From Syntrophobacterales bacterium (GTDB lineage Bacteria; Desulfobacterota; Syntrophobacteria; BM002), in NCBI GenBank assembly GCA_030613915.1, contig JAUWKY010000024.1:1-11750 (forward strand): a stretch of DNA of 11,750 nucleotides. Reading direction: 5' to 3'. The translations under genes were made by a program, and so were the position numbers. Positions 2-11,731 of this stretch are shown here, piece by piece; the stretch's first letter is position 1, and each line of letters begins with the position of its first letter. The notes under the pieces are model-generated. The model saw only the letters and a list, made by a program, of their open reading frames with translations, was not told the DNA's origin and did not search any database.

Positions 2-163
2 GAGAAGGAGCAGGAGACCATCACTGAGGACGGTGAACCCATAACGCTTTCGGTCAAGGGAAGACATGACGTCTCGGCCATACCCCGCATCGTGCCCGTT
101 TGCACAGCCATGGTGCGGTTGGTTCTGGCGGACATGTTGCTACAACAGAAAGCGATCCGGTAA
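2..163 (+). CDS. aroC: Chorismate synthase, C-terminal end (partial)
   Basis: This is the last 53 codons of chorismate synthase, cut by the window edge and ending at TAA 161-163. The enzyme converts 5-enolpyruvylshikimate-3-phosphate to chorismate, the last common step to aromatic amino acids, folate and quinones, using reduced FMN in the cytoplasm. The visible tail matches the conserved C-terminal block: [14 protein letters not shown], then a helix ending LVLADMLL, the usual end of the family. One oddity is a threonine (residue 35 of the fragment, in VCTAM) at a position where I recall the family signature having glutamate. The stop codon is followed at once by a heptad repeat array, and the next gene (230-562) converges on it from the other strand. 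Confidence 0.93.
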
Positions 164-232
164 GTGGTGAGCAGTAAGCAGTAAGCAGCGTATGATTATT
201 TTGTCCAGCCGCTTACGGCTTACCGCTTACTA
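161..232. repeat. Heptad-repeat inverted repeat between convergent genes
   Basis: Starting at the aroC stop codon, 7-base units follow one another: GTGGTGA (164-170), GCAGTAA twice (171-184) and GCAGCGT (185-191). After a loop of about 18 bases the complementary strand version appears as three units of the CGCTTAC type (210-230), running up to the stop codon of the - strand gene. The arms can pair with roughly one mismatch per heptad. Its position between two gene ends suits a bidirectional terminator or RNA-stabilising hairpin. There is no clean T-tract, so that role is inference. Confidence 0.7.
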
Positions 233-562
233 AGTCTTGAGCTTTAATTTCTCAAACAACCCGTCTGCGTACTCCAGAATATAGTCGCGCTGGTTTTTGT
301 TAGCATACTGAACGCACCCACAGCGGAGACGAGCCCGGGTGCGAATTAACAGTTCGAAGCTCACGGACTGGCGGTCCAGATTGACGGCGAAATAATAAGG
401 CTGACAGTCCGTGTGTTCTAACTGCAGCTCTCCATAAAGCGATTCAGGCACGAGGACCCAGTAAATCCCTGGTAGATCGCCAGCCTCTGAATTGCCGTTG
501 AAATAATCTTCCAGCTTTAGAAAATCCCCTTCTCGCAATTGGTCTATCACGTATTGTTTCAT
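230..562 (-). CDS. Conserved-looking small protein of unknown function
   Basis: A 110-residue protein starting MKQYVIDQLREGDF. I do not recognise the family. It reads as a real soluble protein: no signal peptide or membrane helix, balanced composition, and a recognisable alternation of helices and strands. Notable pieces are HTDCQPYYFAVNL near the middle, a CxC pair (RCGCVQYA) at about residues 80-87 and a helical C-terminus. The CxC and the single earlier cysteine could bind metal, but nothing proves it. The start is supported by an AAAAGG-like ribosome site about 10 bases upstream. The gene stands alone, convergent with aroC and separated from it only by the heptad inverted repeat. Confidence 0.75.
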   Translation of the reverse strand: MKQYVIDQLREGDFLKLEDYFNGNSEAGDLPGIYWVLVPESLYGELQLEHTDCQPYYFAVNLDRQSVSFELLIRTRARLRCGCVQYANKNQRDYILEYADGLFEKLKLKT

Positions 563-644
563 AGCGTCTATGCACCTTTTCTATTCGGCCCCAACTAAAT
601 TTATTATGTCCACTATTTTCTCAAGATTTAACAGCCTCCCTTTG

Positions 645-715
645 CTGGAGTAATGGAGTGTTGGAAAAACCCATAAGTTGTAGATCTGCGACAACCCGTT
701 ACTCCAGCACTCCAG
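645..715. repeat. Inverted repeat with 8-base periodic arms
   Basis: The left arm (645-663) is two TGGAGT-containing units 8 bases apart. The right arm (697-715) is the complementary form with two ACTCC units 8 bases apart. Fourteen of 19 arm positions are complementary, plus some possible G-T pairs. It resembles the heptad repeats elsewhere in the window but has an 8-base period. The function is unknown. Confidence 0.65.
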
Positions 716-924
716 TGAGGTAGTTAGCAGCTGCAAGCTCGGAAAGAGATGTACCATTTGCTCGCCTACCATAGTCTCGCACGACTTAATTGTAAAATCG
801 TTTTTGCTGGATTTCCGGGAAACCTTTCGCTAGAATGCTTAGAAGGATGTACTATGCAATAACTAGTTTTCGTACACGATCACAAGTTCTGCTTCAGGGA
901 CCATCGAGTCGCCGAATTGAGCGT

Positions 925-953
925 TTGAATTTTGTTAATAGTCACATCATAAT
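925..953 (+). promoter_or_regulatory. Possible sigma-70 promoter for the isomerase gene
   Basis: TTGAAT (925-930) and CATAAT (948-953) are separated by exactly 17 bases, matching 4/6 and 5/6 of the sigma-70 consensus hexamers. They lie about 85 bases upstream of the GTG start at 1036. This is seen by eye only; transcription has not been shown. Confidence 0.45.
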
Positions 954-1035
954 CCAAAAAATACCAGAGGTGCATTGATACATTGCCAGCAGTGAAAATG
1001 TGCCTGACGCCATGAGTATGGGAAGCTGAAAGACA

Positions 1036-1878
1036 GTGGGAGATCAAATCCTTGACCCAAAGAGGCGTTATGGCAGATTGTTGGATCAAGTGCAGGTGAA
1101 CGCACCTTACCGGCAACTTGTAGACCGATACCTAGAGTCATTTGTTCACTACGGCCTAAACCCGGAGATAGGCTTTGACGCTCATGTCCTGAAAACATTC
1201 AGTGAGGAGGGCATGGCAAAAGTGGCCCGCCTCATTGCAGATTGCGGTAGAACCACTACTTTCCACGGACCATTTATGGACCTTGCTCCCGGGGGTATCG
1301 ATGAACAAATCCGGGCAGTCACAGCCCGGCGGCTGCAACGGACCATGGAACTGGTTCCCCTTTTCCGCCCGCTCAGCATAGTGTTTCATGCGGGTTATGA
1401 TGAACGTCGTTATCACGCACACCGTGCAGAGTGGTTGTCCGGAAGCTTGGCCACCTGGGAACCTCTCATTCGGCAGGCCGAAGAGATGGGGGTGGTGATC
1501 CACCTTGAAAACGTTTATGAGCAAACGCCGGAGATGATCCTTACCCTCATAGAAGAGATGGACTCAGAAAATCTCGGTTTTTGTCTGGATATGGGTCATA
1601 TGAACGTTTTCGGAGAAGTTGCCTTAGCGGAATGGCTTGACGCTTTGGGTCCCCATCTCAAAGAGGTTCACCTTCATGACAACAACGGCCACAGCGACAG
1701 CCACGGTCCCATCGGCAGCGGCACAGCACCATTTAAGGAGCTATTTCAGTACTTGCACGATCAAGAAAAGAGACCCGTGGTTACTCTCGAGCCGCATGAA
1801 GAGGCGACGCTCTGGGCGAGCCTGGAAAACCTGGAGAAGCTCTGGCCTTGGCAGGAGGAGGGCCCCCAGCGATTTTAG
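1036..1878 (+). CDS. Sugar phosphate isomerase/epimerase-like TIM-barrel protein
   Basis: A 280-residue protein of the xylose isomerase-like / AP endonuclease 2 superfamily: metal-dependent TIM barrels that isomerise or epimerise sugars and related compounds. Candidate metal or catalytic residues sit at strand ends as expected: H77 (FHGPF), H118 (FHAG), E158 (HLENV), D185 and H188 (DMGH), H212/H214 (HLHDN), H223 (near GPIGSG) and E252 (LEPH). There is no signal peptide. The substrate cannot be told from the sequence or from the neighbours. The start is uncertain: GTG 1036 lies just after an in-frame stop (1027-1029) and has a weak ribosome site. TTG 1078 or 1081 would begin just before the first conserved block (VNAPYR) and has AGAGG upstream, so the true protein may be about 265 residues. 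Confidence 0.85.
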   Translation: MGDQILDPKRRYGRLLDQVQVNAPYRQLVDRYLESFVHYGLNPEIGFDAHVLKTFSEEGMAKVARLIADCGRTTTFHGPFMDLAPGGIDEQIRAVTARRLQRTMELVPLFRPLSIVFHAGYDERRYHAHRAEWLSGSLATWEPLIRQAEEMGVVIHLENVYEQTPEMILTLIEEMDSENLGFCLDMGHMNVFGEVALAEWLDALGPHLKEVHLHDNNGHSDSHGPIGSGTAPFKELFQYLHDQEKRPVVTLEPHEEATLWASLENLEKLWPWQEEGPQRF

Positions 1879-1965
1879 ATTTAGGAATGCGGATTGCGGA
1901 ATTCGAAATAAGTCCTTTATTTAAGCTTTATTAATTTCAATCCGAAATCCGAGATCCCCAATCCG
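1876..1965. repeat. Heptad-repeat array with inverted arms at a gene end
   Basis: Beginning with the TAG stop codon, 7-base units run to about 1910, for example CGGATTG (1890-1896) and CGGAATT (1897-1903). After a 27-base A/T-rich loop the opposite-strand form follows as four units in strict 7-base register: CAATCCG (1938-1944), AAATCCG (1945-1951), AGATCCC (1952-1958) and CAATCCG (1959-1965). The arms are partly complementary, so a long imperfect hairpin could form downstream of the isomerase gene. There is no T-tract. Confidence 0.7.
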
Positions 1966-2105
1966 AAATGTTAGGAGGGGCGTGCTTATAAGAATTGGCT
2001 GACGGACAAAGTTTTCACGATCCACCGTAGATTCGTGGTTGAATGAGGCAACAAACCAGTGAGAATCCGAAAGGGCGAGCCGTGGAAGCACTAGAGGAAA
2101 GGTCG

Positions 2106-2336
2106 ATGAAGACGCTGGTGGAATACATTGTCAAAGCCCTGGTTGACGATCCTGATCAAATCGTGATAGCCGAGAGAATTGGCCGCAACACCACCATTAT
2201 TGAGTTGTCGGTTGCCAAGGAAGACATTGGTAAAGTTATCGGCAAAGAGGGACGCACCATTAACGCCATCCGCACCATAGTCAATGCTGCCGGTGCCAGT
2301 CAAAAGAAGCGGGTGGTACTTGAGGTTATGGGTTAA
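2106..2336 (+). CDS. khpA: KH-domain RNA-binding protein KhpA
   Basis: A 76-residue protein of the KhpA (YlqC, formerly UPF0109) family, a single KH domain that binds RNA. In Gram-positive bacteria it works with KhpB/Jag and affects cell division and small-RNA biology; its role in Desulfobacterota is less clear. The KH signature is clear: IGKVIGKEGRT with the GKEG loop at residues 46-49, then a helix (INAIRTIVNAA) and the last strand (KKRVVLEVMG). ATG 2106 is chosen over the in-frame ATG at 2043 because AGAGGAAAGG (2094-2103) lies directly upstream and the family starts at this MKTLVEYI-type motif. In many bacteria the gene lies between rpsP and rimM; here it stands alone. Confidence 0.92.
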   Translation: MKTLVEYIVKALVDDPDQIVIAERIGRNTTIIELSVAKEDIGKVIGKEGRTINAIRTIVNAAGASQKKRVVLEVMG

Positions 2337-2495
2337 ATCTAATTGGCTCCTGATCGACGGCCATCGGGGTTTGGGTTTCCTCTTCCCTAATCTTTATTAT
2401 TAAAAATTAGGATCGGACATAATGGATAGCGGAACTGTGGTATTTTTATGTGTAGGAGTACAATGTATACTGACTGCGCTCGATGGTGGAGCTTG

Positions 2496-2517
2496 GCAAT
2501 TGCCATCTTGCAATTGC
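2496..2517. promoter_or_regulatory. Paired GCAATTGC palindromes upstream of the Lon-like gene
   Basis: The 8-base palindrome GCAATTGC occurs at 2496-2503 and again at 2510-2517, one and a half helical turns apart, about 60-80 bases before the protease start. It could be an operator or a small hairpin. A TACAAT -10-like box lies at 2459-2464 without a convincing -35. No known regulator is matched. Confidence 0.3.
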
Positions 2518-2577
2518 TAGAAGCGCTATGATATTTAGATCGCGTTCGCACTTACTGATATCTCAAGGAGGGACGTA

Positions 2578-5028
2578 ATGGCCAAGAAGTTCAAAGAAGT
2601 GCCGGTTGATCAGCTCTACACTCGCATTGATCCTGAGTCTCTCGGTTTTGATACCACCGAAAAACTCTGCGCCCCCGAGGAAGGAGTGGTGGCTCAGGAG
2701 CGGGCCATTGAAGCGCTCAAATTCGGCATGGGCATGCAAGATATCGATTACAATATTTTCGTGGCGGGACAGCCCAAGACGGGACTGACGTATATTGCCA
2801 GGACCTTTCTTGAAAAGACAGCCAAAGAGGAACCGACCCCTCCTGATTCGTGTTATGTCTACAATTTCAAAGAGCCTGATAGCCCAAAATGTATCAGTCT
2901 GTCTGCCGGGCGCGGGAAAGATTTGAAAAAAAGCATGGAGCAGTTCGTGCAAACGCTCCAGGAAAAAATACCCGAGGTTTTTGACAGCGAGGACTACAGT
3001 GCCAAAGAGGCCGAAGTCCATCAAGGATTTGAAAGCAAGAGGCGTGATATCATTGACGCCCTCTCCAAAAGAGCGAAAGAGCAGGGGTTCATTCTCCAAT
3101 TCTCCCAAGTAGGAATGGTGATTGTTCCCGGCACCGAAGAGGGCCAGCCCATGTCACAGGAGGAGCTCAGTCAGCTTCCTGAAGACAAAAAGAAGGCCCT
3201 CAGGGAGAAAAGCGACCAGTTGCAGAAAGAGATGAAAGATGCCATCAAGGAAATCCGCAAGGCGGAAGTAGCTTTCCGGGAGAAGCACAATAAGTTGGAT
3301 GCCGAAATAGCCATGTACGTGGTCGGCCACCTTATGGAAACTCTGGAAGAGCAATTCAAGGACGAGGAAGAAGCACTGGAGTATTTCAAAGAAGTACAAG
3401 AAGACATACTGGACAGCATCGATGACTTCAAAACCAAGCCGGAGCCCCAACAGCAGGCTGCTCCTATGCCTATGCCGCCAAAGGAAGTGACGTTTCGTAA
3501 ATACGACATCAATGTACTCATAGATCATTCGGAGACTGAAGGGGCACCAGTTATCATCGAATCAAATCCCAGTTATCCGAATCTATTTGGCAGCATTGAG
3601 CGTCAGGCCTATTTTGGCGCCCTCTTTACCGATTTCACCATGATCAAGCCTGGAGCCCTTCATAAGGCCAATGGGGGTTACCTGGTAATGAAGGCCCTGG
3701 ATCTTTTGAAATACTGGATATCATGGGAGGCCCTGAAGCGGGCCATTAAAGATCGGGAGATCAAGATAGAAGATCTCGGCGAACTCTATGGCCTCTTCAG
3801 CACCCGCACCCTGAAACCAACGCCCATACCCCTCAATGTTAAACTGGTTCTCACCGGTGATCCCTATCTCTATCAGTTGCTCTACATTTACGACGATCGT
3901 TTCCCCAAGCTGTTCAAGGTCAAGGCTCACCTGGACACCGAGGTAGATAACACTGAGGACAATCTCAAACAGGGTGCCTGCGTGATGTCCAAGTTCTGTG
4001 TTGATCGAGGACTACGTCATGTGACTAATGATGGCGTCGCTCGGGTTCTCGAGCATAGCATGGAGGTCACCGGTGATCGGGAGAAGCTTACCCTGAAACT
4101 CGCCGACATCAGTGATCTGCTCAAAGAGGCTGATTATTACGCTGGTGTGAATAAATCTAAACACATCAAGAGCGAGCATGTGCAAAGGGCAATAGATAAG
4201 AAGAGGTTTCGAGCCAGTCTCTATGAAGAAAAAGTTCAGGAACTGGTCAAGAAAGATATTTTTTGGATTGAAACCGACGGCCATAAAGTGGGCCAGGTCA
4301 ATGGCCTCTCCATTCTGATGACGGGGGATCACGAATTTGGTAAACCAAGTCGTATCACTGCCACGGTCTCCATGGGTAAAAGTGGGGTGGTAAACATTGA
4401 CAGAGAGGCGAAACTAAGCGGGAACATACACACAAAGGGTGTTATGATCCTTAACGCCTACATCAAGGAGAAGTTTGCTCACAATAAGCCTTTGAGCCTG
4501 TCGGCCAGTCTCTGTTTTGAACAGAGTTATGGCATGATTGATGGAGACAGCGCCTCCAGCACCGAACTCTACGTGCTGCTCTCTGCTATCTCCGGAGTGC
4601 CAATCTACCAGGGCCTTGCTGTTACCGGCTCAGTGAGCCAGAAGGGAGAAATCCAGCCCATCGGTGGGGCGACCCGCAAAATCGAGGGTTTCTTCGATAT
4701 CTGTAAGCATAAGGGGCTCACTGGTAAACAAGGGGTAATGATCCCGGAGAAAAATGTCAATAACTTGATGCTTCGACGTGATGTGGTGGAGGCAGTGGAG
4801 AAAGGTAAGTTCCATGTTTACCCGGTCACCACCGTTGAAGAGGGTATTGAAATTCTTACCGGAATGGAAGCCGGCGAGATTCAGGAAGACGGCACCTACC
4901 CGGAGGGCACTCTTTATCGCAAGGTGGACGACAGACTCAGAGAGATGGCCGAAATGGAAAAAGAGTTTGGCAAGGGCAAGGAAGATGAAGAGGAGAGTCA
5001 AAAAGAAGACAATGAAAATGCTGAATAG
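2578..5028 (+). CDS. Lon-family protease, LonC-like, with degenerate Walker motifs
   Basis: An 816-residue cytoplasmic protease of the Lon-like (AAA_32 / Lon_C) group, started at ATG 2578 after a strong AAGGAGGGA site. Order: an N-terminal AAA-like region; a long charged helical insert (about 140-290, probable coiled coil); the rest of the AAA-like core; and a C-terminal Lon protease domain (about 570-780) with a highly charged tail. The protease dyad is intact: S658 in DGDSAS and K701 in GGATRKIEG, 43 residues apart as in E. coli Lon (S679/K722). The Walker A position reads GQPKTGLT (64-71), with leucine at the usual P-loop lysine. The Walker B region (GGYLVMKALDLL, 366-377) lacks the Asp-Glu pair. 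This recalls LonC, described as an ATP-independent Lon-like protease. It has its own terminator and is apparently a single-gene unit. Confidence 0.9.
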   Translation: MAKKFKEVPVDQLYTRIDPESLGFDTTEKLCAPEEGVVAQERAIEALKFGMGMQDIDYNIFVAGQPKTGLTYIARTFLEKTAKEEPTPPDSCYVYNFKEPDSPKCISLSAGRGKDLKKSMEQFVQTLQEKIPEVFDSEDYSAKEAEVHQGFESKRRDIIDALSKRAKEQGFILQFSQVGMVIVPGTEEGQPMSQEELSQLPEDKKKALREKSDQLQKEMKDAIKEIRKAEVAFREKHNKLDAEIAMYVVGHLMETLEEQFKDEEEALEYFKEVQEDILDSIDDFKTKPEPQQQAAPMPMPPKEVTFRKYDINVLIDHSETEGAPVIIESNPSYPNLFGSIERQAYFGALFTDFTMIKPGALHKANGGYLVMKALDLLKYWISWEALKRAIKDREIKIEDLGELYGLFSTRTLKPTPIPLNVKLVLTGDPYLYQLLYIYDDRFPKLFKVKAHLDTEVDNTEDNLKQGACVMSKFCVDRGLRHVTNDGVARVLEHSMEVTGDREKLTLKLADISDLLKEADYYAGVNKSKHIKSEHVQRAIDKKRFRASLYEEKVQELVKKDIFWIETDGHKVGQVNGLSILMTGDHEFGKPSRITATVSMGKSGVVNIDREAKLSGNIHTKGVMILNAYIKEKFAHNKPLSLSASLCFEQSYGMIDGDSASSTELYVLLSAISGVPIYQGLAVTGSVSQKGEIQPIGGATRKIEGFFDICKHKGLTGKQGVMIPEKNVNNLMLRRDVVEAVEKGKFHVYPVTTVEEGIEILTGMEAGEIQEDGTYPEGTLYRKVDDRLREMAEMEKEFGKGKEDEEESQKEDNENAE

Positions 5029-5053
5029 ATAGTAACGACATTCTAACCGAAGC

Positions 5054-5092
5054 GGGCGCTCTCGAGGGTTTTCTTGAATGAGGCGCCCTTTT
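5054..5092 (+). terminator. Intrinsic terminator of the Lon-like gene
   Basis: GGGCGC (5054-5059) pairs with GCGCCC (5083-5088), extended imperfectly by CTC/GAG, and is followed by TTTTC. It lies 26 bases after the protease stop codon. The loop is rather long (about 20 bases), but position and T-tract fit. Confidence 0.75.
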
Positions 5093-5102
5093 CATTTAGT
5101 AA

Positions 5103-5158
5103 AAGGCACAAGGCTCAGGGCGCAAGGCATAAGGTAAAGGAGGCAGAATTCAGGAGTA
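5103..5158. repeat. Array of eight degenerate heptads
   Basis: Eight consecutive 7-base units fill 5103-5158: AAGGCAC (5103-5109), AAGGCTC (5110-5116), AGGGCGC, AAGGCAT, AAGGTAA, AGGAGGC, AGAATTC and AGGAGTA. The section 5131-5157 matches 11640-11666 at 25 of 27 positions, so this is a dispersed repeat with at least two good copies in the window. It runs straight into the hairpin at 5160-5195. Confidence 0.75.
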
Positions 5159-5159
5159 G

Positions 5160-5195
5160 GTCGGATGGTTTCCGCCTCGGCGGAGTTCATCCGAC
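5160..5195. repeat. REP-like hairpin
   Basis: GTCGGATG (5160-5167) pairs with CATCCGAC (5188-5195), and inside it CCGCC (5172-5176) pairs with GGCGG (5179-5183) around a 2-base loop. The 36 bases make an almost continuous stem, preceded by TAG as in many REP sequences that begin GTAGG. It is probably a non-autonomous REP element; no REP-associated transposase is in the window. Confidence 0.7.
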
Positions 5196-5210
5196 GCCAA
5201 TCTGGGGCTA

Positions 5211-5252
5211 AACCACTAAGATCCCAAAGCACACTTTGTGACCTTTGTGGTT
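5211..5252. repeat. Imperfect 42-bp palindrome ahead of the HAD gene
   Basis: AACCACTAAG (5211-5220) mirrors the right end, which closes with TTTGTGGTT (5244-5252); CAAAG and CTTTG pair near the centre. It is one of a type of AACCACNAAG...CTTNGTGGTT repeat often seen between bacterial genes. It lies 25 bases before the HAD start codon, so it would fall in that gene's leader if transcription starts upstream. Confidence 0.65.
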
Positions 5253-5277
5253 GGTTCTGAATTACAGAAAGAAAGTG

Positions 5278-5958
5278 ATGAGAAAACAGGCTGCACTAGA
5301 AGCTGTCTTATTCGATATGGACGGGGTGATTATCGACAGTGAACCGCTATGGTCGAAAGCTGAGCAACAGCTCCTGGCTCGCAGGAATCTTCGCTACTCG
5401 CCACAACTGAAAACTGTCATGATGGGACTAGACTCCAGTGAAGCTGTTGGCTTTTTGATAAAACACTACGATCTCAAAGAGAGCGTAAGCGATGTGGTTG
5501 AGGAGCGTAACCAGCTGATTGCCGGCCTCTTCCGGCAGTTCCTCCGACCGATGCCGCATGCTTTGCAGTTGCTCAGATCAGTGCGGGACTCTCAGATTAA
5601 GACTGGCTTGGCCTCCTCATCACCGAAGGAGCTTGTGGATTTGGCCTTGGGCAGGCTCAATATCACCAGGCTGTTCGATCTCATTTTGAGTGGTGACCAG
5701 GTGGCTCGCGGAAAGCCTGCACCGGATATCTATCTGACGGCGGCCAGGAAGTTGGGGGTGAGTCACGAGAGTTGCCTCGTGATTGAAGATGCCCCCCATG
5801 GGGTGGCTGCGGCGAAAGCCGCCGGCATGTGCTGTCTGGCGATCAGCACGAGTGCGAGCGAGCCAGAACTTGCCGCCGCTGACAGGGTGGTGGGGGATTT
5901 TGACGAGGTGAATCTTCAAACGCTGCAAGAACTCATGCAGCGAGCTCAGGTTGAATAA
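5278..5958 (+). CDS. HAD-superfamily phosphatase or phosphomutase
   Basis: A 226-residue cytoplasmic HAD hydrolase, subfamily IA, like beta-phosphoglucomutase and sugar-phosphate phosphatases. All four motifs are present: FDMDG with nucleophile D13 and acid/base D15; S113 in GLASSS; K146 in RGKPAPD; and E170/D171 in VIEDAPHG. Residues about 18-90 form the alpha-helical cap. The DSEPLW sequence after motif I is typical of the phosphatases acting on small sugar phosphates, so hexitol or deoxyhexose phosphatase activity is plausible, but the substrate is unproven. ATG 5278 is preferred over the TTG at 5245, which lies inside the palindrome and adds residues unlike the family. The ribosome site (AAAGAAAG) is weak. 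Confidence 0.9.
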   Translation: MRKQAALEAVLFDMDGVIIDSEPLWSKAEQQLLARRNLRYSPQLKTVMMGLDSSEAVGFLIKHYDLKESVSDVVEERNQLIAGLFRQFLRPMPHALQLLRSVRDSQIKTGLASSSPKELVDLALGRLNITRLFDLILSGDQVARGKPAPDIYLTAARKLGVSHESCLVIEDAPHGVAAAKAAGMCCLAISTSASEPELAAADRVVGDFDEVNLQTLQELMQRAQVE

Positions 5959-5979
5959 CAAAGCGATATAAAGTAGAAT
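5951..5979 (+). promoter_or_regulatory. Possible sigma-70 promoter for the gene at 6056
   Basis: TTGAAT (5951-5956) and TAGAAT (5974-5979) are 17 bases apart (4/6 and 5/6 consensus matches). The -35 box overlaps the last codons of the HAD gene. The next start codon is about 75 bases on. The -35 hexamer is the same as at 925-930. Not tested. Confidence 0.45.
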
Positions 5980-6055
5980 TTTAATGGTAGTGGTTTAATA
6001 AAGACAATCTTTTTGGGTTCAGAAAATAATCCCAGATTTTTTTACAAGGAAAGTT

Positions 6056-6571
6056 ATGGCCCGTATTATCTATGACTTGGCCTCCAAGGGCAAGGGACTG
6101 TACCATATCTACACAGATCTTGATTTCTGGGATGCCCGCGGTGTGGTTAAAGGTCTTGCCAAGGTAAGAAGAAATTTTGGCAATTCGCCGCCGGGTGATC
6201 AGTACCCCACCCAGGTGGTGGTTGAAGATATGAGCCAAAGGGTTAAGGGTGAGATCGAGAAACGGTTAAAGCGCGCCATACCGTCCCCGCCCCGCCACCT
6301 TATCGTTCAGGCCATCATTTTTTCGGGAAAGTTCGAGTTTGACTGGCGCCAATACTATCCTGATCGATGGTCTGCGGACAGAGTACTCTTTTTTACCCGC
6401 AAGCGGCTGCCCATGAATCAACCCGTGATCAATAGCGCCTACAAGTGGGTGGAACTTGCCATCAACGACAATATTGTTACCATTCAACAACACCAAGGAG
6501 CCCGACCGGAAGAAATCCGGAAAAGTGGAAGAAAGCAAAAAGAAACACCATTTGGTCCCACATGCTTTTAG
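6056..6571 (+). CDS. Unrecognised 171-residue basic protein
   Basis: I do not recognise this protein. The start is well supported by AAGGAAAG (6046-6053) three bases before ATG 6056. It is soluble, with no signal peptide or membrane helix. It has an ordered N-terminal part (ARIIYDLASKGKGLYHIY) and a core of alternating strands and charged helices, including a strand at HLIVQAIIFSGKFEF and a WRQYYPDRW segment. The C-terminal 25 residues are polar, basic and probably disordered. Its TAG stop is formed by the first bases of the 30-bp palindrome at 6570-6599, so the present C-terminus may have been set by insertion of that element. It has its own putative promoter overlapping the end of the HAD gene. 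No function can be assigned. Confidence 0.75.
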   Translation: MARIIYDLASKGKGLYHIYTDLDFWDARGVVKGLAKVRRNFGNSPPGDQYPTQVVVEDMSQRVKGEIEKRLKRAIPSPPRHLIVQAIIFSGKFEFDWRQYYPDRWSADRVLFFTRKRLPMNQPVINSAYKWVELAINDNIVTIQQHQGARPEEIRKSGRKQKETPFGPTCF

Positions 6572-6605
6572 CCCGGATGATTCATGAATCATCCGGGCTG
6601 GTTTT
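6570..6605 (+). terminator. Perfect 30-bp palindrome, probable terminator
   Basis: The half-site AGCCCGGATGATTCA (6570-6584) is followed directly by its exact reverse complement to 6599, with no unpaired spacer, then GG and TTTT (6602-6605). The stop codon of the preceding gene (6569-6571) overlaps its first bases. It can act as an intrinsic terminator, with the central bases forming the loop. It could equally be a dispersed palindromic element. Confidence 0.65.
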
Positions 6606-6653
6606 GACGGGTAGTTCGGACCGGCTTCGGAATAGGAGAGAAAGGCAGCGAAG

Positions 6654-6938
6654 ATGACTGATAAAGAAATAAGGGTCAAACTGAAAGAGCTGGATCGATT
6701 ATATGCAGAACATGCTAACAATCAAGGCCAGGGCGACTTCGAAATGCAGAACAAGCTGCGGATAGAACTCCTTGACTCATTTCTCGCTTTGAAACCTTAT
6801 CTCAAGAAACAAACGAAACTGCAGTGGTATGAGCCCACATACAACTATGCGATAACTGGGAATCTAGAGTATATCGAAGCGGCGAGAGAGGACCTGGCTC
6901 ATATCATTGGCCAGGAGACGGATCCGGATTCACCCTAA
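6654..6938 (+). CDS. Unrecognised 94-residue helical protein
   Basis: A small acidic soluble protein starting MTDKEIRVKLKELDRLY. I do not recognise a named family. The first 20 residues and residues about 30-52 are amphipathic helices. The middle carries aromatic residues (LQWYEPTYNYAITGN) and the C-terminus is a third helix ending in a short polar tail. The start is supported by GGAGAG and AAAGG in the 25 bases upstream. It lies 82 bases after the gene at 6056, separated from it by the palindromic terminator, so shared transcription would need read-through. Coding statistics look normal beside its neighbours. No function can be assigned. Confidence 0.72.
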   Translation: MTDKEIRVKLKELDRLYAEHANNQGQGDFEMQNKLRIELLDSFLALKPYLKKQTKLQWYEPTYNYAITGNLEYIEAAREDLAHIIGQETDPDSP

Positions 6939-6984
6939 CAGTGAGTCCAGCCACCGTTAGTATCCAACGAGCAGCTATTTGCAA

Positions 6985-7061
6985 GCAGCGGGCGGGTAAA
7001 CTAGGCACTAGTCACTAAGCACCATCTGATCGCGTGGAATGCTTGGTGCTTAGTGACTAGT
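6985..7061. repeat. Heptad repeat with perfect 18-bp inverted arms
   Basis: ACTAGTCACTAAGCACCA (7007-7024) is exactly complementary to 7044-7061, with a 19-base loop. The left side is built of 7-base units (GCACTAG 7005-7011, TCACTAA 7012-7018, GCACCAT 7019-7025). The segment 6985-7011 aligns with 9476-9503 (GCAGCGGGC...CTARGCACTAG). It sits between the end of the gene at 6938 and the end of the convergent gene at 7099, so it may also terminate transcription from both sides. Confidence 0.8.
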
Positions 7062-7098
7062 CGAAGAATAAATGTGGGGTGTCCTGATCGGGGCTCAA

Positions 7099-7509
7099 TC
7101 AGAGTTCGTACTGCCCTTCCATGTCCAGAGTGAACTCGTTTGTGTTTTCCCCTGTGGTGACCCTGAACGTACCCTCGCCCTTGATGCCGGCTAGCTTGCC
7201 TGTTCCTTTATAGGTCTCCCAGGTTCCTGTACTTACTTTGGTGTTACCGTCTCGCTTCCCCTCAAAACGACTATACACCGAACCGTACTGAAAATTGGTT
7301 ATGGTGTAACCCTGCATAGGCCCCGAGCCCTTTATACGGTCGTGGAAATTTACACTTCGGCGCGAGACAAATTCGCCTGCCACCCCCACCTCGTATTCAA
7401 TAGGCTCTCCCTCCAATTCAAGTACCATCAGGCTGTGGTCGGGTTCGTCATGGACATAGATGCACTCTCTCCGGGTAACGCGAAGTTTATAGGAAGCTTT
7501 TCTTTTCAT
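7099..7509 (-). CDS. Small probable beta-barrel protein of unknown function
   Basis: A 136-residue protein with no signal peptide or membrane helix. Strand-rich sequence with glycine-turn motifs (GTWETYKGTGKLAGIKGEGTF, split here as GTWETYKGTGKL and AGIKGEGTF, then MEGQYEL at the end) recalls small calycin-like or allene-oxide-cyclase-like barrels and DUF3224-type proteins. This is resemblance by eye, not a firm family call. The start is very well supported: AAAGGAG lies six bases before the ATG on the - strand. It is an isolated gene on the opposite strand, convergent with the gene ending at 6938 and divergent from the DUF4301 gene. It might bind a small hydrophobic ligand, but no binding residues can be named. 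Confidence 0.78.
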   Translation of the reverse strand: MKRKASYKLRVTRRECIYVHDEPDHSLMVLELEGEPIEYEVGVAGEFVSRRSVNFHDRIKGSGPMQGYTITNFQYGSVYSRFEGKRDGNTKVSTGTWETYKGTGKLAGIKGEGTFRVTTGENTNEFTLDMEGQYEL

Positions 7510-7720
7510 GGCCTTCTCCTTTCATCAGGGATTAATAATTGCATCCATTTTGCGTTCCGTTCACTGGAGACGTGTCTGGACGCGCTCGGCAAGATGGTCC
7601 GGAGAGATACCTTGTGTAGGCAAATCTTTTGCCGGAAATGGATCCACCGATTTGACCTCACGGCTTGTTCCAGTGTACAAAAAAACTCCGCATTGGCAAC
7701 TAGTTTTTCGCAGAGCGCAG

Positions 7721-7760
7721 CCTTCGACTCCTTCGACGTGCTCAGGACAGGAGGCTCAGG
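7721..7760. repeat. Dispersed CTTCGAC...GCTCAGGACAGG-type repeat
   Basis: CCTTCGAC and CTTCGAC (7721-7737) followed by GTGCTCAGGACAGG (7739-7752) resemble a short intergenic repeat seen in many environmental bacteria. The function is unknown and only one copy lies in this window. Confidence 0.5.
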
Positions 7761-7765
7761 CCAAG

Positions 7766-7800
7766 TAGGCATAGGGCATAGAGCTGAATCAGGAGAGTGA
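7766..7800. repeat. Decayed heptad array
   Basis: Five 7-base units can be read: TAGGCAT (7766-7772), AGGGCAT, AGAGCTG, AATCAGG and AGAGTGA (ending at 7800). They resemble the AAGGCAT...AGGAG series at 5124-5158 but are more worn. As at 5103-5195, a GTAGG-led hairpin follows closely. Confidence 0.45.
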
Positions 7801-7804
7801 TACC

Positions 7805-7830
7805 TGTAGGAGCGACCTCCCGGTCGCGAT
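7805..7830. repeat. REP-like hairpin
   Basis: TGTAGGAGCGACC leads into GCGACC (7812-7817) paired with GGTCGC (7822-7827) across a 4-base loop. This is the common GTAGGAGCG...CGCGA form of bacterial REP sequence. It lies 53 bases before the DUF4301 start codon. Confidence 0.65.
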
Positions 7831-7882
7831 CAAATAGAACTGGCACATTGCCGAACCATGAAAGATCAAGAGGTACATATCG

Positions 7883-9469
7883 ATGACCAACGATTTGTTC
7901 ACACAGGCAGACCTGGATCAGATGAAACAGTTGGGGATCACCGAGGAAGAGGCCAGGAGGCAGATGGCCATCCTGGAAAAAGGTCCGCGACTGGTTGCCC
8001 TGCAACGGCCTTGCACACCCGGGGATGGGATTGTTGTGCTCGATACCCAGGATCAGAGCCGTTTGCTTGCTCTGTGGGAGGAAACAGCTGCCAAAGGGCG
8101 TTTTAGCGTTTTTTTGCCGGCCTCCGGTGCAGCCACTAGGATGTTTGCCTTTCTGCAACGCATCCGAAGCCGAGCGGACGAGATAACTTCAAGCAAGAAG
8201 GCCGAGGAGTTAGACCAAGCAGATAGTGACTACCATGATTATCAGGATTTTATAAAGTCCTTGGGGGAGTTTGCCTTTTATGAGCCACTGGCGGAAGTTA
8301 TGGCCAGGGCCGGGATTTCCCTGCAAGAGCGGTTGGACTCGGAGGACTGCACTGAAATTCTGGACTTTCTTATGGAAGCACAGGGGCTCAACTATAGTTC
8401 GCTGCCTAAGGGGCTGATTCCCTTTCACCGCTATTCTGATCATTATCGGACCGCGCTGGAAGAGCACCTGGGTGAGGCTATACCCACAGTGCGAGATGGC
8501 AAACAACGGTGCCGCCTTCATTTCACCGGGGCGGCGGAGAATGAAAAGGAGGTCAAGGATCATGGCCGAGGGGCAGCCGCAAATTATGGTGCGAGCTCCG
8601 GAGTGGAATATGAACTAAGCTTTTCCTTACAAAGCCCTGCCACCAATACATTGGCGCTAGATCTGGAAAACCGTCCCTTTCGTCGGCCTGATGGTAGCCT
8701 CCTATTTCGGCCCGGCGGCCATGGCGCTTTGCTGCAAAACCTAAATAGATGTCAAGGAGACATCGTTTTCATCAAGAATATTGACAACGTGGTAACCGAT
8801 GGCCATCGTGATCAGGTGGTGCATCTTCAGAGAATACAGGCCGGCATGCTTTTAGAGCTTCAGGAAGCGATTTTCAGTTACTTGAGCGTCCTGCAGTCGA
8901 GGTCGGTTGAATCAAGAGTATTACAGGAAGTGCTCGACTTTGCGGTTCATCGTCTCAGCGTATCTCCACCAGAGGGTTTTTCGCAGTGCAGCGAAAAAGA
9001 AAAGGGTTCGAGGCTTTCGGAGCTCTTGAACCGACCCTTACGTGTTTGCGGTATGATTAAGAATCGTGGCGAGCCAGGCGGTGGCCCCTTTTGGGTGCAA
9101 GAACCGTCAGGTGGGCTCAGCCTGCAAATAGTGGAATATGCTCAGATCGATCAGAATTCGCCAGAGCAGATGGCCATCTTAGGGGCTTCCACCCATTTCA
9201 GTCCAGTACAGATTGTTTGTGGGCTGCGTGATTTCCAGGACCGTCCTTTCAATCTGACTAAATTCTACGACCCACAAGCGGTGTTTATCTCCCGAAAAAC
9301 CGAGGACGGTAGGGAATTGAAAGCATTAGAATTGCCGGGTTTGTGGAATGGAGGCATGGCCTACTGGAACACAGTGTTCGTTGAGATACCTGAGGAGACA
9401 TTCAATCCAGTTAAGACTATAAACGACCTGCTGCGACCGGGGCACCGCGCGGGACAAGCGGGCAGCTAG
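7883..9469 (+). CDS. DUF4301 family protein, nucleotidyltransferase-like
   Basis: A 528-residue cytoplasmic protein that I recognise as DUF4301, a family without an established function. Landmarks: PASGAATRMF (79-88); LPKGLIPFHRY (174-184) followed by RTALEEHL; RLHFT (211-215); RPGGHGALLQNLN (276-288); and DIVFIKNIDNVV (293-304). The order of a glycine-rich loop ending in R, a PK motif, a GGHGAL loop and an NxDN motif after a hydrophobic strand resembles sugar nucleotidyltransferases with a GT-A-like fold, such as UDP-sugar pyrophosphorylases. A nucleotidyl-transfer role is my inference. ATG 7883 has AGAGGT nine bases upstream. The last bases and the TAG stop belong to the first units of the heptad array at 9462-9524. 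The gene is not in an operon. Confidence 0.88.
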   Translation: MTNDLFTQADLDQMKQLGITEEEARRQMAILEKGPRLVALQRPCTPGDGIVVLDTQDQSRLLALWEETAAKGRFSVFLPASGAATRMFAFLQRIRSRADEITSSKKAEELDQADSDYHDYQDFIKSLGEFAFYEPLAEVMARAGISLQERLDSEDCTEILDFLMEAQGLNYSSLPKGLIPFHRYSDHYRTALEEHLGEAIPTVRDGKQRCRLHFTGAAENEKEVKDHGRGAAANYGASSGVEYELSFSLQSPATNTLALDLENRPFRRPDGSLLFRPGGHGALLQNLNRCQGDIVFIKNIDNVVTDGHRDQVVHLQRIQAGMLLELQEAIFSYLSVLQSRSVESRVLQEVLDFAVHRLSVSPPEGFSQCSEKEKGSRLSELLNRPLRVCGMIKNRGEPGGGPFWVQEPSGGLSLQIVEYAQIDQNSPEQMAILGASTHFSPVQIVCGLRDFQDRPFNLTKFYDPQAVFISRKTEDGRELKALELPGLWNGGMAYWNTVFVEIPEETFNPVKTINDLLRPGHRAGQAGS

Positions 9470-9524
9470 CAGCAGGCAGCGGGCAGTAAATACTAAGCAC
9501 TAGGAACTAAACACTATGCACTGA
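9462..9524. repeat. Array of nine degenerate heptads overlapping a stop codon
   Basis: Exactly nine 7-base units fill 63 bases. The first three are GCAG-type (GCAGCTA 9462-9468, then GCAGCAG and GCAGCGG), then GCAGTAA (9483-9489), and the rest are of ACTA type, such as GCACTAG (9497-9503) and GCACTGA (9518-9524). The DUF4301 stop codon (9467-9469) lies in the first and second units. The middle matches the repeat at 6985-7011. Confidence 0.8.
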
Positions 9525-9555
9525 GGAATAATGGGTTGGGGCTAGGAAGTAGTGC

Positions 9556-9737
9556 CTAGCAGGCTGCTGAAAAAGCCTGGAAACGGCCCCAAACGTCATA
9601 CCGGACGAGACGAAGTCGAGATCCGGTATCCAGTAAACTATTGTTTTTTCTGGATTCCGGATAGTCGCTTCGCGCCTTCCGGAATGACGGACCTGATGCT
9701 CGTACTCTAAATATTGAGTTTTTCAGCAGCCTGCTAG
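9556..9737. mobile_element. MITE-like element with perfect 19-bp terminal inverted repeats
   Basis: CTAGCAGGCTGCTGAAAAA (9556-9574) is exactly complementary to 9719-9737, enclosing 182 bases without a gene. Inside are two nested hairpins, ATACCGGA/TCCGGTAT (9598-9629) and ATTCCGGA/TCCGGAAT (9654-9685). They are bracketed by CGTCATACCGG (9594-9604) and CCGGAATGACG (9679-9689) and joined by ATCCAG/CTGGAT. The ends carry CTAG, which could be part of the terminal repeats or a palindromic target duplication. It is non-autonomous; no transposase is nearby. Confidence 0.82.
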
Positions 9738-9783
9738 TTAGGACAGCTTTTCCTTTGCTTAAACTTTGCACCAATAGGATTTC

Positions 9784-10545
9784 ATGACTGTGTTGTACCA
9801 GATACTCAAACGACTCATTTTGCCACCCGGCTTTTTGATCTTGCTTTTGGTGGTCGGTTTCACTTTCAGTTTTTTGAAGTTCCGAAGACTGGGCAGGGTA
9901 ATCCTGGCTGTCGGTATTTTGTTTCTTTATCTTCTGAGCATCTCACCCACTGCAGACTTGCTATTGACCCCTCTCGAGTCTAAATATACCCCTCTTAATC
10001 CTGAGCGACTTCCCAGGACTGGAACCCTGGTAGTGCTCAGCGGCGGCGCTTCGGCGGCAGATTCCCTGCCGGTCTCAAGTCGGCTAACCCAAAGTTCCAC
10101 TAAACGGCTTGTTGAGGCGGTGCGACTGTATCACCTCATGGATCGACCCAAAATAGTGATCTCCGGCGGTAGTGGCAATCCTTTGGTACAGGTTACGGAA
10201 TCAGCGCTTATGCGTGAACTGCTCCTAGATCTTGGGATACCCGGCAAGAGAATTGTGATCGAAGGGAAATCGCGGAATACTTTTGAAAACGGGAAGGCCA
10301 TTCAGCAATTGCGGCTTACACCCCCTATCGTTCTTATAACCTCGGCCAGCCACATGGAGCGAGCTGCCAAGGTTTTTAAAACACTCGGCATACACTTTTT
10401 GCCGGCGCCCTGTGATTTCAAGGCTCGCTGGAGTGCGAACGATCCCCTTCGTTTCTTCCCCTCAGGAGGCGCGCTGAATACCTCCACCGCAGCAATTTAC
10501 GAATACCTTGGCACCTGGTGGTACGATCTAACGGGCAAGTTCTAA
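9784..10545 (+). CDS. Membrane-anchored DUF218 / YdcF family protein (ElyC-like)
   Basis: A 253-residue protein with two N-terminal membrane helices (about 11-30 and 37-54) and a DUF218 domain (about 79-245) probably on the periplasmic side. This matches E. coli ElyC (about 260 residues), an inner-membrane factor for envelope integrity linked to peptidoglycan and the undecaprenyl lipid carrier; the biochemical activity is not settled. Family motifs: TLVVLSGGAS (81-90), SSRLTQSSTKR, IVISGGSG (124-131), the conserved glutamate in VTES (E139), SRNTFENG (163-170) and ITSASHM (185-191). ATG 9784 has AGGAT a few bases upstream. A MITE-like element begins two bases after the TAA stop, and a hairpin terminator lies about 195 bases downstream. 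Confidence 0.88.
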   Translation: MTVLYQILKRLILPPGFLILLLVVGFTFSFLKFRRLGRVILAVGILFLYLLSISPTADLLLTPLESKYTPLNPERLPRTGTLVVLSGGASAADSLPVSSRLTQSSTKRLVEAVRLYHLMDRPKIVISGGSGNPLVQVTESALMRELLLDLGIPGKRIVIEGKSRNTFENGKAIQQLRLTPPIVLITSASHMERAAKVFKTLGIHFLPAPCDFKARWSANDPLRFFPSGGALNTSTAAIYEYLGTWWYDLTGKF

Positions 10546-10546
10546 C

Positions 10547-10682
10547 TAGTGCTCATCCGGATATCCTGCATTGTCATTCTGAGCGAAGCGAAGAATCTCC
10601 CGCGAACCCGCGAACTAAGAGATTCTTCGTCGCTTTGCTCCTCAGAATGACAACCGAAAAGAGGGTTTCCGGATGGACACTA
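10547..10682. mobile_element. MITE/REP composite directly after a stop codon
   Basis: The outer ends TAGTGCTCATCCGGA (10547-10561) and TCCGGATGGACACTA (10668-10682) are inverted repeats, with two mismatches, ending in TA. Inside, TTGTCATTCTGAG (10571-10583) pairs exactly with CTCAGAATGACAA (10641-10653), and GAAGAATCTC pairs with GAGATTCTTC (10619-10628). The inner part is a type of TGTCATTCTGAGCGAAGCG repeat common in bacterial intergenic DNA. TA ends would fit an IS630/Tc1-like target duplication, but this is inference. No gene inside. Confidence 0.72.
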
Positions 10683-10740
10683 ACTCATATCGTCCTCGAT
10701 TTTTGCTCTGGTCATTGTACAGAAAACCACTTATGATGAG

Positions 10741-10773
10741 AACCAGCCGCGTTCACGCGGCTGGTTATGTTTT
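10741..10773 (+). terminator. Strong hairpin terminator
   Basis: AACCAGCCGCG (10741-10751) pairs perfectly with CGCGGCTGGTT (10756-10766) over the 4-base loop TTCA, then ATG and TTTT (10770-10773). It lies before the HtrA-like gene and most likely ends transcription of the DUF218 gene, from which the element at 10547-10682 now separates it. Confidence 0.75.
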
Positions 10774-10800
10774 GGCCTGCATTATTAGGGACGGAGAGGC

Positions 10801-11628
10801 ATGAGAGTTACAACCATAACAGGTCGAAAGCTTAGGTTGCTGCTCATAATGGGTATTTCTGCAATTATTGCGGGGATGGTAGGAGAAGCTGCGGCCCTCA
10901 CCCGTAGCGAGCAAAACACCATCCGCGTTTTTCATCAAGTTTCAGCCGGTGTTGTGAACATCACCACCACGAGCATTGGCCGGGATTTCTTTTTTAATCC
11001 TATGCCAGCAGAAGGAAGCGGATCCGGCGTTATTGTTGATAAAGCAGGCCATATAGTCACCTCCTACCACGTGGTGAACGGCAGCAGTCTTCTGGAGGTG
11101 ACCCTTGCAGACGGCAGTAGATGGGAGGCCACTCTGGTTGGCAGTTCTCCCAGTAGCGATCTGGCGGTGATCAAAATCGAGGCACCGCCAGAGCAGCTCA
11201 AGTCCCTGCGATTGGGCTCTTCGAAGAATCTACGCGTGGGCCAGAAAGTGCTGGCCCTGGGCAATCCATTTGGCCTGGGACAGACACTGACCACGGGAAC
11301 TATCAGCTCGTTGGGGCGAGATGTTCGGATCAGCGGCGATGTGATCATTCATAATGTCATTCAGGCCGACGCCGCAATCAATCCAGGAAATTCTGGCGGT
11401 CCGCTCATCAATTCTGACGGCGAGGTAATTGGTATTAATACTGCCATCTTCAGCCCAACTGGTAGTAGTGTGGGCATAAGCTTTGCCATTCCCGCGGACA
11501 CGGTACGGAGGATTCTACCAGGCATGGTCTCTATTTGGCCCAAGCTCGTGAGTTGGGCCCTGGCCGTGATACTGGTGGGGGTGTTCCTCTGGTGGTTTTG
11601 GCGGAAAATACAACCACGGGGGCTGTAA
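10801..11628 (+). CDS. HtrA-type trypsin-like serine protease with C-terminal membrane anchor
   Basis: A 275-residue envelope protease of family S1C (DegP/DegS/HtrA type), which degrades or senses misfolded periplasmic proteins. The N-terminus has a signal sequence or membrane helix (about 11-28) with a possible cleavage site after AAA (30-32). The catalytic triad is complete: H90 (SYHVVNG), D120 (SSDLAVIK) and S198 (NPGNSGGP). The surrounding segments (ALGNPFGLG, TTGTISSLGR, VGISFAIP) are typical. HtrA proteins usually continue into one or two PDZ domains. Here the protease domain ends near residue 240 and is followed by one membrane helix (about 249-266) and a short basic tail. ATG 10801 follows GGAGAGG (10793-10799), rather close. 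It is a single gene after a terminator; its stop codon starts a heptad array. Confidence 0.9.
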   Translation: MRVTTITGRKLRLLLIMGISAIIAGMVGEAAALTRSEQNTIRVFHQVSAGVVNITTTSIGRDFFFNPMPAEGSGSGVIVDKAGHIVTSYHVVNGSSLLEVTLADGSRWEATLVGSSPSSDLAVIKIEAPPEQLKSLRLGSSKNLRVGQKVLALGNPFGLGQTLTTGTISSLGRDVRISGDVIIHNVIQADAAINPGNSGGPLINSDGEVIGINTAIFSPTGSSVGISFAIPADTVRRILPGMVSIWPKLVSWALAVILVGVFLWWFWRKIQPRGL

Positions 11629-11688
11629 GCACTGGGCACAAGGTAAAGGAGACAGAATCCAGGAGTCAGAATCTAGAATTCAGGAGAA
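11626..11688. repeat. Array of nine degenerate heptads starting at a stop codon
   Basis: From the TAA stop, 7-base units run for 63 bases: TAAGCAC (11626-11632), TGGGCAC, AAGGTAA (11640-11646), AGGAGAC, AGAATCC, AGGAGTC, AGAATCT, AGAATTC and AGGAGAA (ending at 11688). The part from 11640 is nearly identical to 5131-5157. The AGAATYC and AGGAGNN units alternate, giving a 14-base super-period. Confidence 0.78.
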
Positions 11689-11731
11689 AAGCAAAAAAGG
11701 GGACTTCCACTCAAGAGACTGTGTTGCAATT

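Follow-up and report, generated by a model that had tools for sequence, protein, structure and literature searches.

In the parts of the literature accessible to us, the excess of tandem heptamers in bacterial genomes is ascribed to polymerase slippage, or else repeat families are described singly. The arrays described here lie in the intergenic DNA of an 11,750-nt stretch of a Syntrophobacterales bacterium (assembly GCA_030613915.1, contig JAUWKY010000024.1; hereafter the window), and Xanthomonas and Geobacter provide closer precedents for them than the short tandemly repeated repetitive (STRR) sequences of cyanobacteria. The GGGAATC heptamers of Xanthomonas combine fixed and free positions (GGGANTN), mostly in four units, and include 70 and 75 cases of two nearby convergent sites; they are intergenic, near the 5′ neighbouring open reading frame (ORF) and fewer between divergent genes, and their length and sequence vary at the same genes between two related species (Rehm et al. 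2015, PMC4692102). Fixed and free positions, opposite-strand pairs in constant order and an intergenic location near the upstream stop codon are found here too. Unlike the one G-rich family followed in that study, which is capable of G-quadruplexes, the arrays studied here belong to dozens of families sharing the same slots, and four runs of three Gs occur in only 1 of 270. In Geobacter metallireducens, Aklujkar et al. (2009, PMC2700814) described a few dozen copies of paired "global regulator binding sites" on opposite strands: octamers GTTGCTYN (class 1), TCTCCGTS[Y] repeats (class 2) and five tandem heptamers MTYCTGA (class 3). These were interpreted as protein-binding sites, for which IHF/HU was proposed, and the passages available to us contain neither slot turnover nor a polarity count.

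Other described repeats resemble the arrays less. The TAACTGA repeats of Beggiatoaceae (MacGregor 2015, PMC4679880) are abundant intergenic direct heptamers of two to six copies, patchily distributed across phyla; unlike the present arrays they have a single unit, form 169 direct sets against one indirect and lie just upstream of start codons, other heptamers being rare there. Seven is also the commonest unit length of simple sequence repeats in many genomes, where heptanucleotide repeats change by whole units, and Mrazek (2007) explained heptamers by slippage with a preferred seven-base step (both as cited in PMC4679880 and PMC4692102); families with polarity or convergent pairs do not appear for these repeats, or for cyanobacterial STRRs, in the accounts given by these two sources. 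To the extent that the sources were accessible, this kind of array is known in single-family form from Xanthomonas and Geobacter; for many heptamer families sharing slots, a search with narrow terms that covered few subscription papers found no published description.

The window is a whole contig of a draft genome of 2.25 Mb (351 contigs, 79% complete; the "own genome"). Genome-wide lag statistics were computed, with the window excluded, on 34 further contigs (35 picked by number order, of which L008 was all N and dropped) and on twenty 20-kb pieces of a congener, G002; L-numbers denote other contigs of the own genome and G-numbers the genomes of relatives. Genes were called by a simple ORF-length rule, and arrays containing N were removed before counting. 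In the 12 intergenic stretches of the window (2,651 bp), identity at a lag of seven bases was 30.5% vs 25.3% in dinucleotide shuffles (z 6.1), lag 14 reached z 4.9, and the remaining lags from 2 to 30 stayed within z -2.5 to 2.6. The period, which a preliminary description had noticed in the window and had proposed to check against shuffled intergenic and coding DNA, extends well beyond it: in the further contigs the intergenic lag-7 z was 18.5, harmonics stood out at 14, 21 and 28, and 40 of 149 intergenic stretches held a total of 60 arrays (0.23 in shuffles), and G002 gave z 30 and 164 arrays vs 0.77 expected, in 97 of 292 stretches. The harmonics weaken by lag 28 to 35, consistent with arrays of about four units. 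Coding DNA showed no lag-7 excess, either in the window (identity 0.241) or beyond it, where the usual lag-3 series was found.

At score 12, the own sample, which here takes in the window, has 60 lag-7 arrays and G002 has 156. Lag 8 yielded 7 and 15 arrays and lag 9 yielded 10 and 19, about one-tenth of the lag-7 numbers each, and lags 5, 6 and 10-13 gave 0 to 6. Seven is the dominant period, yet not an exclusive one. Inverted partners accompany 7 of the 12 non-coding octamer arrays in G002 (0 of 7 in the own genome), and, by reading, an octamer hairpin in G003 occupies a slot that carries heptamer hairpins in the own genome and G007. Since octamer arrays of like plan exist, a polymerase with a fixed seven-base step is not required.

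About half of the arrays have a partner of the same family on the opposite strand. Within 150 bp and at score 11, an inverted partner was found for 33 of 60 own arrays and 77 of 156 in G002 (reversed control, 1 and 9; direct control, 7 and 16), showing that the arrays form hairpins; terminal inverted repeats, by which miniature inverted-repeat transposable elements (MITEs) are recognized, are likewise present for about half of them. Across 89 hairpins (own genome, G002 and further congener loci), arms have a median length of 31 bases and loops one of 26. Polarity, i.e., which strand of the unit stands in the 5′ arm, was constant within the unit class for 59 of 60 hairpins in the 20 classes with at least two hairpins, whereas 2,000 coin-flip runs gave a mean of 43.3 and a maximum of 52 of 60. 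The single exception belongs to the CAGCTG class, with a self-complementary core. The 5′ arm holds more G than C in 65 of the 89 hairpins and less in 22, and thus composition cannot explain the polarity of every family. The two arms share the family and not the order of unit variants (12.26 vs 12.50 permuted in 72 hairpins, none at p 0.05, with low power at so few units). Same-family arms 1 to 3.5 kb apart stood in paired order 10 times and in reversed order 5 times, giving no sign of long elements.

Reduced to their consensus units, 81 own and 189 G002 arrays represent 111 of the 1,172 classes that could occur. Twenty-five classes were seen at least three times, vs 2.0 for uniform random units, and 20 were common to both genomes, vs 3.4 expected. 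The units had initially been taken as unrelated; they belong instead to families recurring throughout the genome, and even GCAGTAA-type and GCACTAA-type units stand side by side in congeners. Variation was uneven across the seven positions in all 12 families tested, which were hand-chosen: of 87 units of the GGCATAG family, all 87 agree at position 2 and 86 at position 7, with position 1 free, and in the CATTTCT family the first three bases are near-fixed and the last two free. Mixing of sub-families may contribute, and units within one array differ likewise. Four runs of three Gs occurred in none of the 81 own arrays and in one of the 189 from G002 (four runs of two Gs in 24 and 45), and a G-quadruplex reading was rejected on that count. 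The GCAGTAA pattern is patchy within the bacterial family: G009, of another genus, has 60 and 76 matches (control 4 and 2), exceeding the own genome, and G010 and G011 have few.

Copies of some hairpins are dispersed. Among the 40 longest pairs listed in the own sample, five bear arrays and are 82 to 94% identical along 92 to 116 bases. The hairpin at 1879 of the window matches L056 with 78% identity over 103 bp, loop included. A search of genus loci with the two arms of the AGGTTTC family gave 17 matches at about 15 places with differing flanks; 10 of the 17 carry the loop string TGTTTYT, which was outside the search pattern, and the number of heptamers varies. This family is plainly a dispersed element, loop included. 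A different, non-heptameric element of about 184 bp (TAGCCCGGAT...) lies in L016 (2210-2452), L017 (2211-2424), L018, L045 and L047 at 82-90% identity between contigs, with relatives in the G002 pieces. Another stretch of about 184 bp, L019 133-316, is a very abundant dispersed repeat: four congener genomes each hold scores of sequences 86-94% identical to it.

Arrays favour particular places relative to genes. Of the convergent spacers 22 of 52 hold them, as do 88 of 243 tandem ones and 13 of 52 divergent ones; within tandem spacers they lean toward the upstream stop (quartiles 58, 35, 37 and 21). The array start overlaps a stop codon or lies within 15 bp of one in 19 of 34 cases in the own genome (8.7 expected) and in 39 of 89 in G002 (25.6 expected).

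The same slots were then compared between congeners, to which the window is close (the protein encoded at 2578-5028 is 97% identical in G003, 95% in G001 and 94% in G007). Of the 27 slots compared, 23 had an ortholog in one or more of G001, G003, G005 and G007, and none was found for the other four; four of the five own contigs used were chosen for array richness, and L019, which lacks any array at score 10, was set aside although its orthologs had been located. Where the own slot holds an array, the other genome has one in 30 of 37 comparisons, and where it does not, in 1 of 27 (p 1.6e-10, with non-independent comparisons); restriction to slots of similar length gave 30/37 vs 1/18. The family is less stable. 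Slot pairs share a family in 27 cases and do not in 26, with an array on one side only in 21, and 9 of the 13 slots with arrays in at least two genomes include a pair without a common family. One 67-bp hairpin, differing by substitutions alone, fills the 163-229 slot of the own genome, G001 and G007; in its place G002 carries an ACTAAGC type, G006 GGCTCAA and GGTACAA types, G004 a GGTNATA type (one-sided anchor) and G005 no array. The G007 copy of another slot holds several families inside an outer hairpin common to G001 and G003, as if nested. Within families, length also changes by whole units, namely by 21 bp in each arm (own vs G001), 14 and 7 bp (G001 vs G003) and 14 bp (G003 vs G007). 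The gain and loss of units that had been predicted between relatives is seen in some cases. Of indels of at least three bases, 9 of 45 in arrays are multiples of seven (21 of 235 outside), many of the other array indels coming from poorly alignable pairs; slot pairs below 78% identity were left out of this count. Neither of the two outcomes named in advance as telling against the period, namely no genome-wide excess and no seven-base steps, was obtained.

Repetitive extragenic palindromes (REPs), their mosaic assemblies (bacterial interspersed mosaic elements, BIMEs) and MITEs are dispersed short intergenic palindromes. We lean towards the view that the heptamer arrays are arms, or lone surviving arms, of many families of short dispersed hairpins of this REP/MITE-like sort, with slippage of units in addition. 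The copying of hairpins is suggested by polarity, families and dispersal, and slippage as a second process by the unit steps; the inverted partners, the uneven variation across unit positions and the slots that outlast their families fit this view too. The arms differ from REP/BIME and MITE sequences in consisting of tandem heptamers of many families, and no associated transposase was found. An element would comprise roughly 3 to 6 heptamers in tandem, then a loop of between about 5 and 100 bases, and then a second array of that family on the opposite strand, preferably just behind a stop codon. A trans-acting enzyme may copy or convert such elements from a genome-wide pool into permissive slots, new ones often landing beside or inside older ones; slippage or unequal exchange between units would then shift the copy number, and the seven-base spacing could be the footprint of whatever recognizes the arms.

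Several observations weigh against this view. No mobilizing gene for the arrays was identified. The transposase domain PF01797 (Y1 transposase), present in 7 of 12 genomes in all and once in the own draft, had no match in G007, which is 95% complete and has 114 matches to the GCAGTAA pattern. The ACTAGGC/ACTAAGC hairpin of the window has no second copy with its loop in four genomes, where the arms alone match, and by folding three of the six places in the window lack a hairpin of their own. Reading of the slots, which was no systematic search, revealed no clean insertion with target duplication, and the unit-step length changes call for slippage as well. Finally, the persistence of slots reflects either targeting of existing arrays or a function of the slot, which the data cannot separate. 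A version in which transposases associated with REPs (RAYTs) drive the spread was rejected, as the Y1 transposase does not track the arrays.

That functional alternative, in which hairpins are selected as gene-end structures for protection of transcript 3′ ends or decoupling of neighbours, is the strongest of the rivals, although we regard it as unlikely. Under such selection a slot would be kept while its sequence remains free to change, which agrees with the slot persistence, the proximity to stops, the excess of convergent over divergent spacers and the strong folds of the window as RNA (160-232, z -5.65 against shuffles; 6998-7064, z -5.98); at 1880-1970 the fold is slight (z -1.63), and 5100-5160, 9457-9528 and 11626-11690 show none. 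However, the need for a stem predicts neither a seven-base period nor fixed polarity, many arrays are partnerless, the pairing of arms is not kept unit by unit, and avoidance of promoters would yield the same positional bias. Nor is there an excess of T-runs behind the 3′ arm (2 of 89 on one strand and 5 on the other, 6 at random), which led us to reject intrinsic terminators; no known RNA family reached its gathering score in the window.

Replication slippage with a preferred seven-base step, building each array in place while fold-back copying makes the inverted partner, would account for the dominance of heptamers, the clean steps of 7, 14 and 21 bp and the near absence of arrays from coding DNA. 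As the sole process it appears quite improbable and was demoted: units recur and are shared, conservation is position-specific, polarity is fixed, AGGTTTC copies are dispersed with their loop, arms are unmatched unit by unit, and the share of sevenfold array indels is low, with the reservation about alignable pairs made above. The preliminary description had suggested a common generating step such as slippage, template switching or a seven-base polymerase step, in preference to the spread of one element. That no single element has spread holds; generation by such a step alone, independently at each place, is not supported in view of the recurring units, the polarity, the AGGTTTC dispersal, the indel count and the period-8 hairpins, and the spread of many families fits better than a generating step alone. 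Least probable of all are operator arrays read by DNA-binding proteins with one heptad per subunit in direct and inverted order, of which plasmid pSM19035 offers a working model in its omega repressor heptads: position-specific conservation per heptad, convergent pairs of fixed polarity and the arithmetic by which three units make about two helical turns are in their favour, yet dozens of families per genome would demand many readers, post-stop locations outweigh promoters, and the family of a slot is often not conserved.

Related hairpins occur far outside the genus. At least 119 stretches of public genomes match the pattern AATCCGMAATCCGMAATCCG, and hosts among the 80 matches listed include Acidobacteria, Verrucomicrobia, Planctomycetes, Nitrospirae, Chloroflexi, Bacteroidales, Saprospiraceae, Gemmatimonadetes, Armatimonadetes and Deltaproteobacteria. 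At 119 loci among the matches listed, 60 further non-coding lag-7 arrays lie off the matched place, vs 12 at lag 8 and 15 at lag 9; lag 14, a harmonic, gave 36, and each remaining lag between 4 and 15 gave 0 to 5. These loci were picked by one family and are thus uninformative on overall prevalence. Among the matches listed, which span several phyla, 28 of 29 paired places have the order CGGATT...AATCCG (at least 5 of the 28 from one Acidobacteria assembly), and a looser count of these matches gives 36 places (31 loci) vs 4 (3 loci). In viral contigs the count was 30 places in 12 loci vs 7 in 6 loci, and the opposite order there shows that the rule is not universal. For hairpins of other families from other phyla matched to units of the genus, polarity was the same in 8 and opposite in 9 cases with one mismatch, and the same in 5 and opposite in none with exact matches, which are too few. 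A strict hairpin of two by two units was found in 2 of 395 genomes of the window's phylum and not even in the own genome, a pattern evidently too narrow, and its reverse order in 0 of 395. Stretches of 1 to 20 kb from 20 relatives (including G007 and G009, which have many GCAGTAA-pattern matches elsewhere) contain no array at score 12 and little non-coding DNA.

The features of the window are collected in Table 1. At a score of at least 9 it holds 9 lag-7 segments vs 0.16 in mononucleotide shuffles, and at score 8 it holds 11 vs 0.74 expected, which leaves the two weakest arrays (11629-11679 and 7768-7784) individually insecure. The initial list of arrays needs corresponding amendment: 164-230 and 1883-1965 each comprise two opposite-strand arrays flanking a loop, 6998-7025 is a left arm whose hairpin extends to 7061, 9462-9524 consists of two families in succession, and 11626-11688 and 7766-7800 are weak, at score 8. 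The AGGAGTC/AGAATCC units of 11629-11679 read MTYCTGA on the opposite strand and fit, by eye only, class 3 of G. metallireducens. A composite like that at 9457-9522 (CAGCGGG, then ACTAGGC) lies before 7000, and partial matches to it (query bases 1-38) recur in the own genome and G007.

Table 1. Heptamer arrays and a related octamer hairpin in the window
Feature	Position	Strand	Score	Remarks
5′ arm, GCAGTAA family, 4 units	159..188	+	lag-7, 15	right behind presumed stop 160-162; folds with 211-230
3′ arm, GCAGTAA family, opposite strand	211..230	-	lag-7, 11	orthologous 67-bp slot in G001, G007
5′ arm, GGATTKC family	1871..1909	+	lag-7, 14	spans stop codon of gene ending 1878
3′ arm, AATCCGM units (complement of GGATTKC)	1939..1969	-	lag-7, 12	
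Single arm, AAGGCAC family	5103..5134	+	lag-7, 13	no fold of its own, z 0.40
5′ arm, ACTAAGC family	7000..7022	+	lag-7, 10	between convergent genes
3′ arm, ACTAAGC hairpin	7040..7061	-	lag-7, 9	18 bases exactly complementary to 7007-7024
Two GGCATAG-family units (first described as a decayed array)	7768..7784	+	lag-7, 8	alone at noise level
Arm, CAGCAGG family	9457..9486	+	lag-7, 13	overlaps stop 9467-9469
Arm, ACTAAGC family, immediately after CAGCAGG arm	9487..9522	+	lag-7, 11	does not fold by itself, z 1.99
Weak composite arm, GGCACAA, then AGGAGTC/AGAATCC units	11629..11679	+	lag-7, 8	Tandem Repeats Finder (TRF): 14-base period at 11647-11673
Related hairpin of 8-base period (TGGAGTNN), not heptameric	~646-715	.	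lag-8, 8 (646-665)	lag-8 segment 701-715

Two further repeats lie in the window. A MITE-like element at 9556-9737 with terminal repeats CTAGCAGGCTGCTGAAAAA matches L050 at 96% identity (188 bp) and L007 at 84% (194 bp). An ACTAGGC-type array adjoins it both here and in L050, and a similar element stands next to TAGTGC units in G003's copy of the L049 slot. The inverted repeat GTCATTCTGAGCGAAGCGAAGAATCT ... AGATTCTTCGTCGC...CAGAATGAC at 10573-10652 looks like a separate dispersed palindrome.

Taken together, dozens of unit classes have a common period, hairpin plan, fixed polarity and gene-end slots, and one family keeps its polarity across several phyla. A bolder proposal, to which we give little credence at present, is that one machinery in many phyla recognizes convergent heptad arrays by their seven-base spacing and hairpin plan, not by one sequence, and keeps rewriting fixed post-stop slots; position, period and polarity would then be inherited and the sequence would not. 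The old oddity of why the repeat unit should be seven bases long becomes a testable question, namely what recognizes or moves heptad hairpins, and the answer would explain part of the fast-changing intergenic DNA in such genomes.

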